Of a DNA stretch of 59,763 bases, positions 18,136 to 22,759 are shown piece after piece. This DNA comes from Oligoflexia bacterium. GTDB lineage: Bacteria; Bdellovibrionota; Bacteriovoracia; Bacteriovoracales; Bacteriovoracaceae. Position 1 is the first letter of the stretch. The number at the start of each line of letters is the position of its first letter. A program made the translations under genes and the position numbers. Below the pieces are notes generated by a model, which was given only the letters and a program-made list of their open reading frames with translations, was not told the DNA's origin and did not search any database. Location: positions 1 to 59,763 of the forward strand of contig JADGAM010000005.1 of NCBI GenBank assembly GCA_015232015.1, read 5' to 3'.

Positions 18136-18332
18136 GTTCATATTTTGAAATGATTAGGAAAAATAAAATTATAAAAAAATACATAAAGGAATAAATAATA
18201 AATCCCTTTTAATAAAATAAAAGGACAGCTGAATTTTAAATTAGACAATAGATAAGCATGTCTAACTTTAATTCTATATTATTAATTTTCATGTTAAAAT
18301 ATTTAGCTGCAATTTTAACAGGAGGCAATGCT

Positions 18333-18782
18333 ATGAAATTTTTACCTAACATTTTCAGAGGGCATAATTCATTACCATCCATCCTTGATGATTTTTTTGA
18401 TGATGATGATTTTAAAAACATTTTTGCTCATAAAAGGCAAAGTAAATTTCTTTCACCTTCAATTGATGTTATAGATGATACAGATAAATATATTTTAAAA
18501 GCAGATTTACCGGGAGTGAATAAAAAAGATATCAAAGTTGAAGTTAAAGATGGATTTTTAACTATTTCTGGAGAAAGAAAAGAAGAAAAAGATGTTAAAG
18601 ATGAAGGCTATCATAGACAAGAAAGATTTTATGGTAGATTTCAAAGAAGCTTTCCTGTTGGGGAAGCAATAATGGAAGATAAAGTAGAAGCTAAATATAA
18701 TGATGGTGTTCTTACCCTGGAACTTCCGAAAAAAGAAGAAGCAATAAAAAAGAAAACTGTTAAAGTTATAGATGTCAAATAA
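18333..18782 (+). CDS. Hsp20/alpha-crystallin small heat-shock protein
   Basis: An AGGAGG seven to eight bases before the ATG at 18333 fixes the start; an in-frame ATG at 18258 has no ribosome site. The 149-residue product has a short N-terminal arm, an alpha-crystallin domain (about residues 35-130) with SPSIDVIDDTDKYILKADLPGV, and the ADGVLTLELPK-type motif (here YNDGVLTLELPKKEE). It ends in a Lys-rich tail with VKVIDVK in place of a clear I-x-I anchor. It should hold unfolding proteins as an ATP-independent chaperone in the cytoplasm. No heat-shock operator (such as CIRCE) is seen. Confidence 0.95.
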   Translation: MKFLPNIFRGHNSLPSILDDFFDDDDFKNIFAHKRQSKFLSPSIDVIDDTDKYILKADLPGVNKKDIKVEVKDGFLTISGERKEEKDVKDEGYHRQERFYGRFQRSFPVGEAIMEDKVEAKYNDGVLTLELPKKEEAIKKKTVKVIDVK

Positions 18783-18871: not shown

Positions 18872-19984
18872 TTGATTTATCAAAGTCTTTTTTGTTCTTA
18901 CTCTCTCACTAAAATTCTTTTTTTGAAATACAATTATTTTCATTGGGTGGCGAAAATAATTACCTTTATTATAGGAATGGGTCCTATTCTTTATTTTTAT
19001 TCGATAAAAAAATTACAAAATAGTTTGTTAGCAGAAGTTGGTGCCATCTTAATGGGTTTATTGGCATTGCTGTTTTTTATAACCATTGGATATCAACTGA
19101 CATTATTGGTAATCAAAATACTCTCTAAGCTTGTTTCCATTAATTATTATCGATCACTAGTAATAACAGTAGAAATTGCTTGGTTGTTAGTTGCTGTTTA
19201 TTATCTATTTTCAAGTTTTCAAGAAGGATACAGGCCTCCTAGCGTAAACAGTGTGAGAATTGCTATTCCTAATTTTTCTTATCCTAATTTAAAATTAGTT
19301 TATTTAACTGATTTGCATCTTGGACCATTATGGAAAGAAAAATTTACTAGGCATATAGCAAAGGAGATTAAAAATATAAAACCAGATATTCTACTTTTAG
19401 GAGGAGATGTTATCGAATTAGACCCACTTTTTTCACCCTCTCTCCCTCTAATTCTGCAACCATTTTTAGAAATCACCGCCAAAATTCCTTCTTATATGGT
19501 ACTTGGTAATCATGAATACTATAATAATCTTTTAGCAATAATTGATATTTTGCCAAAATATAATATTCATTTGTTAAAAAATGAAGGTCTTATTATTGGA
19601 ACACCTCCACATGCTTTTAATTTGCTGGGGGTAAATGATTATAGTGGCGTAGGTCTTGGTGAATACGCTCCTAATTATAAAATGGCCTTTAGAAATAGAG
19701 ATCCTAATTTATCTACTATTTTGCTTGCTCATCAACCAAGATGTGTCGCCGATTTAGAAGAAAAAAATAAAATCGATCTGATTTTATCGGGACACACCCA
19801 TAATGGTCAAATTTTTCCTTTTAATCTCTTTGTTAAATTAGTACAACCTTACGTTGTTGGACTTCATAAGCATTTTCAAAATACACAAATCTATGTTTCT
19901 GCTGGTACCGGAAGTTGGGGTCCACCCATACGCTTTGGTAGTCGAAATGAAATAACTCTTATAGAAATTGTTTCTACAAAATAA
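18872..19984 (+). CDS. Membrane-bound metallophosphoesterase (YkuE-like)
   Basis: Three to four hydrophobic segments fill residues 1-120. The calcineurin-type domain follows, with all metal-site blocks: LTDLHLG, LLLGGDVIE, LGNHEYY, LLAHQPR and LSGHTHNGQIFP. Relatives hydrolyse phosphomonoesters or UDP-diacylglucosamine-like lipids; the substrate here is unknown. The start is uncertain: TTG 18872 has no ribosome site, and the frame stays open and hydrophobic back to about 18806 without ATG, GTG or TTG. The true N-terminus may therefore use a rare codon, or an upstream frameshift may have removed the original start. Confidence 0.88.
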   Translation: MIYQSLFCSYSLTKILFLKYNYFHWVAKIITFIIGMGPILYFYSIKKLQNSLLAEVGAILMGLLALLFFITIGYQLTLLVIKILSKLVSINYYRSLVITVEIAWLLVAVYYLFSSFQEGYRPPSVNSVRIAIPNFSYPNLKLVYLTDLHLGPLWKEKFTRHIAKEIKNIKPDILLLGGDVIELDPLFSPSLPLILQPFLEITAKIPSYMVLGNHEYYNNLLAIIDILPKYNIHLLKNEGLIIGTPPHAFNLLGVNDYSGVGLGEYAPNYKMAFRNRDPNLSTILLAHQPRCVADLEEKNKIDLILSGHTHNGQIFPFNLFVKLVQPYVVGLHKHFQNTQIYVSAGTGSWGPPIRFGSRNEITLIEIVSTK

Positions 19985-20039
19985 CTATTTCTGAACTATT
20001 TTTGAGTTGTTTTTGAACTTTTTCTGATCTAAAGGCCTG

Positions 20040-20132
20040 TCAAAAAATAACATTACTTACAATTATCATTAACAATAATAAAATAATTGAAATCAATGTG
20101 GTCGGAGAAATCATACTCTCTTTCCTAATCAT
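20040..20132 (-). CDS. 30-residue single-membrane-span micropeptide
   Basis: The ATG at 20130-20132 has GGAGG at a spacing of seven, one of the better ribosome sites in the window. The peptide starts M-I-R-K-E-S-M-I-S-P, then has one unbroken hydrophobic segment (about residues 13-25, Leu/Ile-rich) and ends -VIF, with a TGA stop. It is too short for usual gene callers. It lies 49 bp downstream of another micropeptide gene on the same strand. Size and layout fit small membrane regulators or type I toxin-like peptides; nothing in the sequence decides between them. Confidence 0.55.
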   Translation of the reverse strand: MIRKESMISPTTLISIILLLLMIIVSNVIF

Positions 20133-20181
20133 AACCAATCCTCCACGTGCTTATAATCATAAGTTATAGTCGTAAATTACA

Positions 20182-20286
20182 TTACCCTCTAAATTTTTTA
20201 CTTTTATGTGGTCTTTTTCTTTTTCTTACTGTTACATTTCTATGGAAATAAAATCTTTGATTTTTTGATTGGATAAACTTCTTCAT
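20182..20286 (-). CDS. 34-residue strongly basic micropeptide
   Basis: AAGGAG lies nine bases before the ATG at 20284-20286. The product is 34 residues and extremely basic (the middle reads VRKRKRPHKSKK) with aromatic residues in the first half (RFYFHR). The charge suggests nucleic-acid, ribosome or anionic-membrane binding. It is not one of the small ribosomal proteins I can recall. It is followed by the hydrophobic micropeptide at 20132, and both lie 156 bp or more downstream of the response-regulator gene, so they may form their own unit or a tail of that transcript. Confidence 0.5.
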   Translation of the reverse strand: MKKFIQSKNQRFYFHRNVTVRKRKRPHKSKKFRG

Positions 20287-20442
20287 AATTTTTTTCTCCT
20301 TAATTTATTAATTTATTAATAAAAAATTTATTAATACAGATAAGAATCTGTAAAATTCCTACCCGATACAAATAAATTATCTTACAAAATAAACATTTTT
20401 GTGTCAGAAGAATGTCAAATGATTGTCAAATGATTGTCAATT

Positions 20443-21165
20443 TTAGCTGACTACTATTTTGTAACCAATTCCTCGCACGGTTTCAAATAGATGATCAGCA
20501 ATTTTTTGACGAAGTTGCAAGATATGTGTGTCCACAGTTCTGGTTGTTGGATAATTATTCATACCCCATACTTTATTTAAAATTTCTTCCCGAGAAAACA
20601 CACGTTTTGGACTTTCGGCCAATAGAAGAAGAAGATCATATTCCATCTTAGTTAGTTCAATTTTTTTGTTATTATAAAATACTTCTCTAGTTTTTAAAGT
20701 TATTTTTAATAATTCTAATTCAATTGAATCGTCATTTTCATTTTTTAGTGCATCAGATATCTCTTCACTATTATTTTCAAATTTTCTAATTTGCACTCGA
20801 ATACGTGCTATTAGTTCACGAGGATCAAAGGGTTTTGTTAAATAATCGTCGGCACCACTTTCAAGACCTAAAACTCTATCAACAAGTTCATTTCTTGAAG
20901 TTAACATGATTATTGGAATATTTTGATTTAACTTTCTAACCTTTTTCATGAAATCCAGACCTTCTCCGTCAGGTAATATCCAATCTAAAAGTATCATTGA
21001 TTTTGAAGAAGATCCTTGAGAAATTAATTTTAATATTTCATCGGCCTCACTAAGGTTTTTATACCAAGTGATATTCATTGAAAATGTTTTTAGATAATCT
21101 ACTAAAGATTGGCCAAGACTAAGATCATCTTCAACAAGATAAATATTAAAATCTTTGTATTTCAT
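20443..21165 (-). CDS. OmpR/PhoB-family DNA-binding response regulator
   Basis: The receiver domain (residues 1-125) has the acidic pair in LVEDD, the phospho-acceptor Asp at about 61 in MILLDWILPDGEG and the conserved Lys in YLTKPFDP. The winged-helix effector domain (about 145-240) ends with the recognition-helix and wing motif TRTVDTHILQLRQKI...VRGIGYKI typical of OmpR-type regulators. It overlaps the kinase gene upstream by 20 bp, so the two are translationally coupled and form a cognate pair. The regulon is unknown; the adjacent upstream genes make mevalonate-pathway enzymes. Confidence 0.95.
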   Translation of the reverse strand: MKYKDFNIYLVEDDLSLGQSLVDYLKTFSMNITWYKNLSEADEILKLISQGSSSKSMILLDWILPDGEGLDFMKKVRKLNQNIPIIMLTSRNELVDRVLGLESGADDYLTKPFDPRELIARIRVQIRKFENNSEEISDALKNENDDSIELELLKITLKTREVFYNNKKIELTKMEYDLLLLLAESPKRVFSREEILNKVWGMNNYPTTRTVDTHILQLRQKIADHLFETVRGIGYKIVVS

Positions 21166-22759
21166 TAAATTTTTTCTCCAATTTATGTCGACTTAATTTT
21201 ATCTGAAAGCGTGTTGGTGTTGGTAAAAAACTCAATTGTCCATCTAAATCCTCAACAATTTTTTTTACTATCTTTAATCCTAGTCCCATTCCCTTGCTCT
21301 TAGATGATTTTACAAAATCACCACACATCTGCTCAATAGTTTTAAAACTGCAACTTCCCTCATCAGCAACCTCAATTAGCAATTCATTATTTTTAGAAAA
21401 AAACAAAGAAAAGGTGACAGGTGACAATCCATGAGCAAAACTATTTTCAATTAAATTTTTTAAACAAATACCTATCCAATGCTGATCAAAATAAAAAAAG
21501 GAATCTTCTTTTAAAAGAACAATTTTTAATTGCCCTTCTTCTATTTTATTTAAAAAATAGTGATCAATTATTTCAGATAAAAAAACATTAATAGAATCAA
21601 TTTTTTTAAGTTGAAATTTAAAAACATTTTTAGAAGAAAGATTAAGATAACTTGAACTTTTTTCAACAAGCCTTTGTAAACGATATACATCATTTGATAA
21701 TCTTAATGCTATATCTTGCAGTGGTAATCCAATATGGTTAAAATTTTGTTGAATTTTTTCAATCCCCAAAAGCATGGCCGCCACAGGAGTTCTAAATTCA
21801 TGAGTTAAAATCTGTAAACTATGCCTACGTTGATCTTCGCTTTTTCTCTCTTTTAAAATATTTTTTATTAACACCATAACGACAAGAATCAAAAGCACAA
21901 TAGATGTAACAAAAAGATAAATTGAAAAACTCCCAACCATTTGAAAAAGATAACCCACAGAATATCTCCAACAACTATTTCCCATTTCATAAAGACATTT
22001 TTTTTGATTCTGATCTTGGCGTTTTTCAATCATTATAAATTGACTACTATCCAAAAATTTTTGAACCTCATTTAAATCATAGATATAATAACGTCCATCA
22101 ACTAATGAATCGAATTTTTTAACTAACAAATAATCATCAAGTAAAATTAAAACATCCGCGTTCACAAGATATTGCAAACGAGCAAGATTAAAACTACCAA
22201 AAATATCTAACAATTTACTCTTGGAAACTTTCTTTTCATTTTTAATTTCATTTAACTCAAGAATATGAAATAGATTTAGATTACGTTCAATCCAATCTCG
22301 ATTTAACTTTACTTTTTTCATTTTGTAGTAAAGATAAACATAACTTTTACCGCTTGGATGTATATATGGTGGGTATTCAAAAAACATATCTGGCAATTCA
22401 TCTATCAAAGAACATTCAAATTGTTGCCACAACTCATCTTTACGATATATATCTAAAAAATTTTTATATTTTTCCTTTTGTTTTTGTTGGCAATTAATTT
22501 TATTATTTTGAGAGAGAGACGATGAGCTGTATAGCTCAGGATTAAGAAGCTTTCTCTTCTCAAAATTATCATAAATTTTAAAGATATCAATAATTCCATT
22601 TGCCTTAACAGATGCAACCATTTTAAAAATAGTTTCTTCAACTGAAACTTCTTTTTCTTGATTATTATAAAAATCTTGATCTTTAAAAAGATATGACCAA
22701 CGTCCAAGAATGAATGCCATAACAATAATTATAGCAATTAAAAACAGATGTATGCGCAT
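21146..22759 (-). CDS. Membrane sensor histidine kinase, possibly VxrA/DUF3404-like
   Basis: A signal anchor (residues 4-20) and a second membrane helix (about 278-299) bracket a periplasmic sensor domain of about 255 residues. The kinase core has the H-box ILTHEFRTP with His at about 320, the N-box LIENSFAHG, and the G2 region KGMGLGLKIVKKI. In the sensor, the segment YPPYIHPSGKSYVY and the Cys pair in CLYEMGNSCWRY remind me of DUF3404 sensors such as Vibrio VxrA; this is from memory and needs a profile search. The start codon sits at the end of an ATTT tetranucleotide tract with no Shine-Dalgarno, so translation probably depends on the DUF35 gene just upstream. Confidence 0.9.
   Translation of the reverse strand: MRIHLFLIAIIIVMAFILGRWSYLFKDQDFYNNQEKEVSVEETIFKMVASVKANGIIDIFKIYDNFEKRKLLNPELYSSSSLSQNNKINCQQKQKEKYKNFLDIYRKDELWQQFECSLIDELPDMFFEYPPYIHPSGKSYVYLYYKMKKVKLNRDWIERNLNLFHILELNEIKNEKKVSKSKLLDIFGSFNLARLQYLVNADVLILLDDYLLVKKFDSLVDGRYYIYDLNEVQKFLDSSQFIMIEKRQDQNQKKCLYEMGNSCWRYSVGYLFQMVGSFSIYLFVTSIVLLILVVMVLIKNILKERKSEDQRRHSLQILTHEFRTPVAAMLLGIEKIQQNFNHIGLPLQDIALRLSNDVYRLQRLVEKSSSYLNLSSKNVFKFQLKKIDSINVFLSEIIDHYFLNKIEEGQLKIVLLKEDSFFYFDQHWIGICLKNLIENSFAHGLSPVTFSLFFSKNNELLIEVADEGSCSFKTIEQMCGDFVKSSKSKGMGLGLKIVKKIVEDLDGQLSFLPTPTRFQIKLSRHKLEKKFNEIQRF

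Follow-up and report, generated by a model that had tools for sequence, protein, structure and literature searches.

The window, by which we mean the whole 59,763-nucleotide stretch analysed here, belongs to an Oligoflexia bacterium genome (G000) that is 84.7% complete. On its minus strand a VxrA-like sensor histidine kinase gene with a DUF3404 region (21146..22759) and an OmpR/PhoB-type response regulator gene (20443..21165; Pfam Response_reg and Trans_reg_C) overlap and make up one operon, and no operon of further genes continues from the pair in G000. The 458 bp between the regulator stop (20443) and a convergent metallophosphoesterase gene (18872-19984, plus strand) house two small ORFs, both on the minus strand and 49 nt apart: a basic 34-aa ORF, MKKFIQSKNQRFYFHRNVTVRKRKRPHKSKKFRG (20182..20286), with a Shine-Dalgarno region containing AAGGAG (20293..20301), and a 30-aa single-span membrane ORF, MIRKESMISPTTLISIILLLLMIIVSNVIF (20040..20132; 32 aa when read from an upstream in-frame TTG), a candidate small gene. 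A sequence-only reading of this DNA had pointed to both as unlisted micropeptide genes, and in its description it was accurate: each ORF has an ATG, a stop and a Shine-Dalgarno site at the reported minus-strand coordinates, the basic peptide has 34 residues behind AAGGAG (and a net charge of +14), and the membrane peptide has 30 residues behind GGAGG at a spacing of 7. It overlooked, however, the main feature of the locus, a tandem array of 11-bp regulator-type repeats that precedes the basic ORF. A second array with an 11-bp period, unrelated in sequence to the first (AACTATTTCTG on the plus strand; 4.5 copies, 73% matches), lies at 19983-20031, between the membrane ORF and the metallophosphoesterase stop. 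A convergent Hsp20-like gene is found near the regulator locus both in G000 (18258-18782) and in G029 (L075:6189-6584), which may be chance. Rfam gave no match on either strand of 19800-20600, and no plasmid matched among those searched with the intergenic DNA.

The best NCBIfam model for the kinase is VxrA (E 2.9e-45), which scores about 100 bits above the next model, and the DUF3404 match reaches 27.7 bits against a gathering score of 25. In five kinases of the group VxrA ranks first among the family models; for those of G001, G020, G011 and G029 it is the sole model at E 1e-20. Since the kinase score of about 155 bits is far below the equivalog cut-off of 750, we call the system VxrAB-like and not VxrAB; the family-model comparison behind this label is that of the kinase. 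The regulator is 80% identical to its orthologue in G001.

The repeats begin directly after the regulator stop and read, from 20440 to 20402 on the minus strand, TTGACAATCAT TTGACAATCAT TTGACATTCTT CTGACA, that is, four 11-bp direct repeats of which copy 4 is CTGACA. This last repeat is also the predicted -35 element of a promoter for the basic ORF (20379..20407, minus strand), followed by a 17-nt spacer and TAAGAT. In G001 there are six repeats, and the promoter elements are CTGACA, 17 nt and TACGAT. The promoter scan by itself was no better than shuffles, and the weight therefore rests on the array and on its conservation. A whole-genome search for TTGACA-N5-TTGACA-N5-TTGACA placed the regulator locus best in G000, in G001 and in G020 (the closest other genus), with 0, 1 and 2 mismatches, respectively, against 3 mismatches at all other loci, which is about the background level of a reversed-pattern control. 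In Vibrio cholerae the VxrB motif is TTGACAAAA-N2-TTGAC (PMC7695739); the G000 array reads TTGACAATC-AT-TTGAC and fits the motif core and the 11-bp spacing, apart from two differing bases in the first half. The array is predicted to be a VxrB-type binding site for the response regulator, and in the literature searched we found no report of such a site in a group distant from Vibrio. Further regulator targets with shorter two-repeat sites may exist elsewhere in the genome; one possible target is marked by the two-repeat site ATGACAATCTTATGACAATC between divergent genes (L051; G000:C360:16382-16401).

The basic ORF was compared across 129 family genomes, in which G001 is the only genome of the genus besides G000. 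At E 0.001 the peptide is present in 2 of the 129, both of this genus, with no match in the remaining 127; weaker matches across the family (E 0.006-0.1) were dismissed as chance, as many contain stops and none passes E 0.001. The G001 orthologue, MKAIFFLKSQKFFYLRNVTTKKRKRQHKSKKYRG (contig JADFZW010000006.1, L002:1498-1602, plus strand), sits directly behind the orthologous kinase and regulator genes, shares the length, the AAGGAG site and the stop position, and is 59% identical in amino acids to MKKFIQSKNQRFYFHRNVTVRKRKRPHKSKKFRG. The 102 coding bases align without an indel, whereas the leader is poorly conserved (its alignment is interrupted by a gap of some 29 nt) and the DNA downstream of the ORF can hardly be aligned. 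By the NG86 method the ORF has a dS of 1.00, a dN of 0.26 and a dN/dS of 0.26, an estimate that rests on about 19 synonymous sites because two orthologues are known. Its dS is close to that of the regulator (dS 1.08, dN 0.14) and of the kinase (dS 1.14, dN 0.20), and it has therefore diverged for as long as its neighbors, under purifying selection (Fisher p about 0.003-0.009). When the same 28 substitutions were placed randomly in a neutral simulation, 0.2% of trials left the frame open with 20 or more of the 34 residues identical. By these comparisons the basic ORF is very probably a real gene. AlphaFold2, run on the two-sequence alignment, predicts a helix at residues 2-23 and a basic tail (mean pLDDT 77). 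No relative of the peptide was detected among viral contigs and phages. A leader peptide for attenuation was considered and rejected, as no larger gene on the same strand comes after it before the convergent gene is reached.

The array is not confined to this genus. At a threshold of shuffle p <= 0.02, a triple-repeat array is called just after the regulator gene for 34 of the 65 family orthologues of the regulator that were examined. What stands behind it varies: a DsbA-like lipoprotein gene (thioredoxin fold) in 25 of the 34, an HPF-like gene in two (L032 and L151, from two other genera), the micropeptide in two (both of the G000/G001 genus), and none of these in five, among them L176 and L189. 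The L032 product matches Ribosomal_S30AE at E 0.0015, below the family cut-off, and the L151 product has no match of its own. The first 180 bases past the regulator stop at L176 (reverse strand of the locus) contain the array, a short stretch and a strong GGGCCTAGAGATAGGCCC hairpin with a T-run, an arrangement that resembles a short RNA, or a short ORF that continues into its terminator. A very short lipoprotein-like ORF lies behind the array at L189; judged by sequence, the genes behind the regulator at L036 and L189 look like truncated N-terminal relics of the DsbA-like lipoprotein. The gene order in G020 is regulator, array, a 108-aa ORF and the DsbA-like gene; this ORF (L073:8191-8619, minus strand) starts with ATG, has its own AAGGAG and is as far from the regulator as the micropeptide is, and it has no Pfam match. 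At L039, where the regulator orthologue has no array, a 43-aa single-span ORF with a Shine-Dalgarno site, MPEKLWVLLILLITWAALPISLIVANTVFDRDVVKPGEHAGHH, begins 78 nt past the regulator stop. Two related ideas were discarded. The DsbA-like protein has not been lost from the genus, since both G000 and G001 encode a homologue of 67-68% identity at another locus (where the 420 bp upstream showed no triple-repeat array), and an origin of the peptide from the DsbA-like gene was set aside, as no similarity between them was seen by eye. We tentatively suggest that the array marks a conserved output slot of the family, usually taken by the DsbA-like lipoprotein and sometimes by an HPF-like ribosome factor or by what resembles a short RNA. 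A single genus would instead have filled the slot with a newly arisen 34-aa cationic peptide, which would be the system's only dedicated effector and represent a new stress-micropeptide family; this wider proposal as a whole is possible, although the odds are somewhat against it.

In our main reading, the basic ORF is a true micropeptide gene restricted to this genus, and the upstream VxrAB-like system has it as its dedicated output; we assign this reading a probability of about 0.7. Going by the kinase family, envelope or cell-wall stress would be sensed by the VxrA-like kinase, and the phosphorylated regulator would bind the 11-bp TTGACA array beside its own gene, as the repeat sequence and the V. 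cholerae VxrB motif suggest. With the last repeat serving as the -35 element, a short transcript would be switched on and translated into a cytosolic, mostly helical peptide of charge +14, for which the comparative evidence argues as to coding and the structure prediction as to the helix. The peptide might then act on a negatively charged partner in the cytosol, for instance RNA or the ribosome. As it has no match and belongs to no family in Pfam, NCBIfam or PDB sequences, its biochemical role is deduced from composition and analogy: the HPF-like gene in the same slot in two other genera, taken with a cationic cytosolic peptide, suggests the RNA or ribosome target, which we regard as a plausible guess held at low confidence.

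The main alternative to such a target is that the peptide feeds back on the system itself by binding its own kinase or regulator, in the manner of PmrD, MgrB or MzrA. Small basic connectors of two-component systems do exist, PmrD for example (PMC2919465), and in G000 as in G001 the peptide gene comes directly after those of the kinase and the regulator. However, in related genera the pair and the array persist with a DsbA-like or HPF-like gene in the peptide's place, and the pair thus needs no such peptide; nor was a sequence relation to known Pfam or NCBIfam families found. We consider a connector unlikely. Still less probable is that the transcript acts mainly as an sRNA and that the ORF is incidental or secondary. 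This idea draws on V. cholerae, where VxrB activates the sRNA VadR via repeats of a like kind (PMC7695739), and on the terminator hairpin that ends the short stretch behind the L176 array. A VadR-like role is disfavored because the RNA of the ORF is unstructured and codon-constrained: it folds no better than shuffles in the two genomes (z -0.01 and +1.43), and its substitutions obey codon constraint. In addition, no terminator-like site was seen after the ORF, and it is the leader, not the ORF, that is poorly conserved and carries the indel of about 29 nt.

The readings that give the membrane ORF a role turn on chance levels and on conservation. Among 3000 dinucleotide shuffles of the gap, 0.6% contain one or more ATG ORFs of 28-60 aa with a strict Shine-Dalgarno site and 0% have two, a TM-like ORF with such a site occurs in 0.07%, and one with a net charge of at least +10 never does (0%), but these percentages overstate the surprise because the place was picked from a 60-kb window. 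Conservation is the stronger test, and in the sequence comparison it separates the two ORFs: it speaks for the basic one and against its neighbor. The stretch with the membrane ORF is absent from G001, where a convergent RND-type gene takes its place and stops some 10 bp past the basic ORF, and a search of 38 other genomes (G001 and 37 further ones) gave no convincing relative, the best match having E 0.15 and an internal stop; phages gave no relative either. The membrane ORF therefore lies, as far as sequence can tell, outside the conserved unit. The sequence-only reading, which had placed two micropeptide genes just after the two-component system and likened the basic and hydrophobic pair to small regulators or toxin-like peptides, is thus supported in part, for an unlisted gene of the basic peptide and not for the membrane peptide. 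A bicistronic toxin-like or membrane-active pair can appeal to the common strand, the 49-nt distance, the Shine-Dalgarno site on each ORF and the rarity of TM-like ORFs in the shuffles, but G001 carries the basic ORF without the other and the wider genome set has no convincing membrane-ORF relative; the pair is not conserved as a pair, toxin-like action found no support, and we rate this explanation as very improbable. The membrane ORF on its own could instead encode a small protein that is recent, confined to this species and translated from the basic-ORF transcript, which is doubtful but clearly more probable than the pair. It has a good Shine-Dalgarno site, an ATG and a single-span composition (19-residue Kyte-Doolittle maximum 2.8), and no terminator-like site was seen before it. 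On the other side, hydrophobic frames arise readily in T-rich DNA (the window has 31% G+C), the place was chosen from 60 kb, and G001, the closest genome in the comparison, has no such stretch.

If our main reading holds, the locus is a compact case, open to testing, of a stress-sensing system in which the promoter stays and the gene behind it is exchanged, and a regulatory site of the VxrB type, known from Vibrio, would also occur in a distant group. For those who annotate small proteins, the locus shows cleanly how comparison splits a probable micropeptide from a look-alike ORF next to it. Among known systems, Vibrio VxrAB (WigKR/VbrKR, with vxrCDE and the sRNA VadR) is alike in that VxrA is the nearest kinase model, the DUF3404 region, the repeat core and the 11-bp spacing are shared, and the regulator drives, or here is predicted to drive, small outputs. 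It differs in that the kinase studied here scores far below the VxrA equivalog cut-off and no further operon genes follow; the known small output is an sRNA in Vibrio, and its predicted counterpart is a conserved 34-aa ORF here and a DsbA-like lipoprotein in much of the family. In PhoB/OmpR-type promoters, too, 11-bp direct repeats occur, and the final copy lies 17 nt from the -10 element. The Pho box consists of 11-bp direct repeats of CTGTCAT, the last copy of which replaces the -35 element, whereas the repeat here is based on TTGACA. Like PmrD, the arginine-rich DUF1127 proteins and ribosome-associated peptides such as bTHX, the micropeptide is small, strongly cationic and predicted to be cytosolic, but it has no sequence relation detectable in Pfam or NCBIfam.
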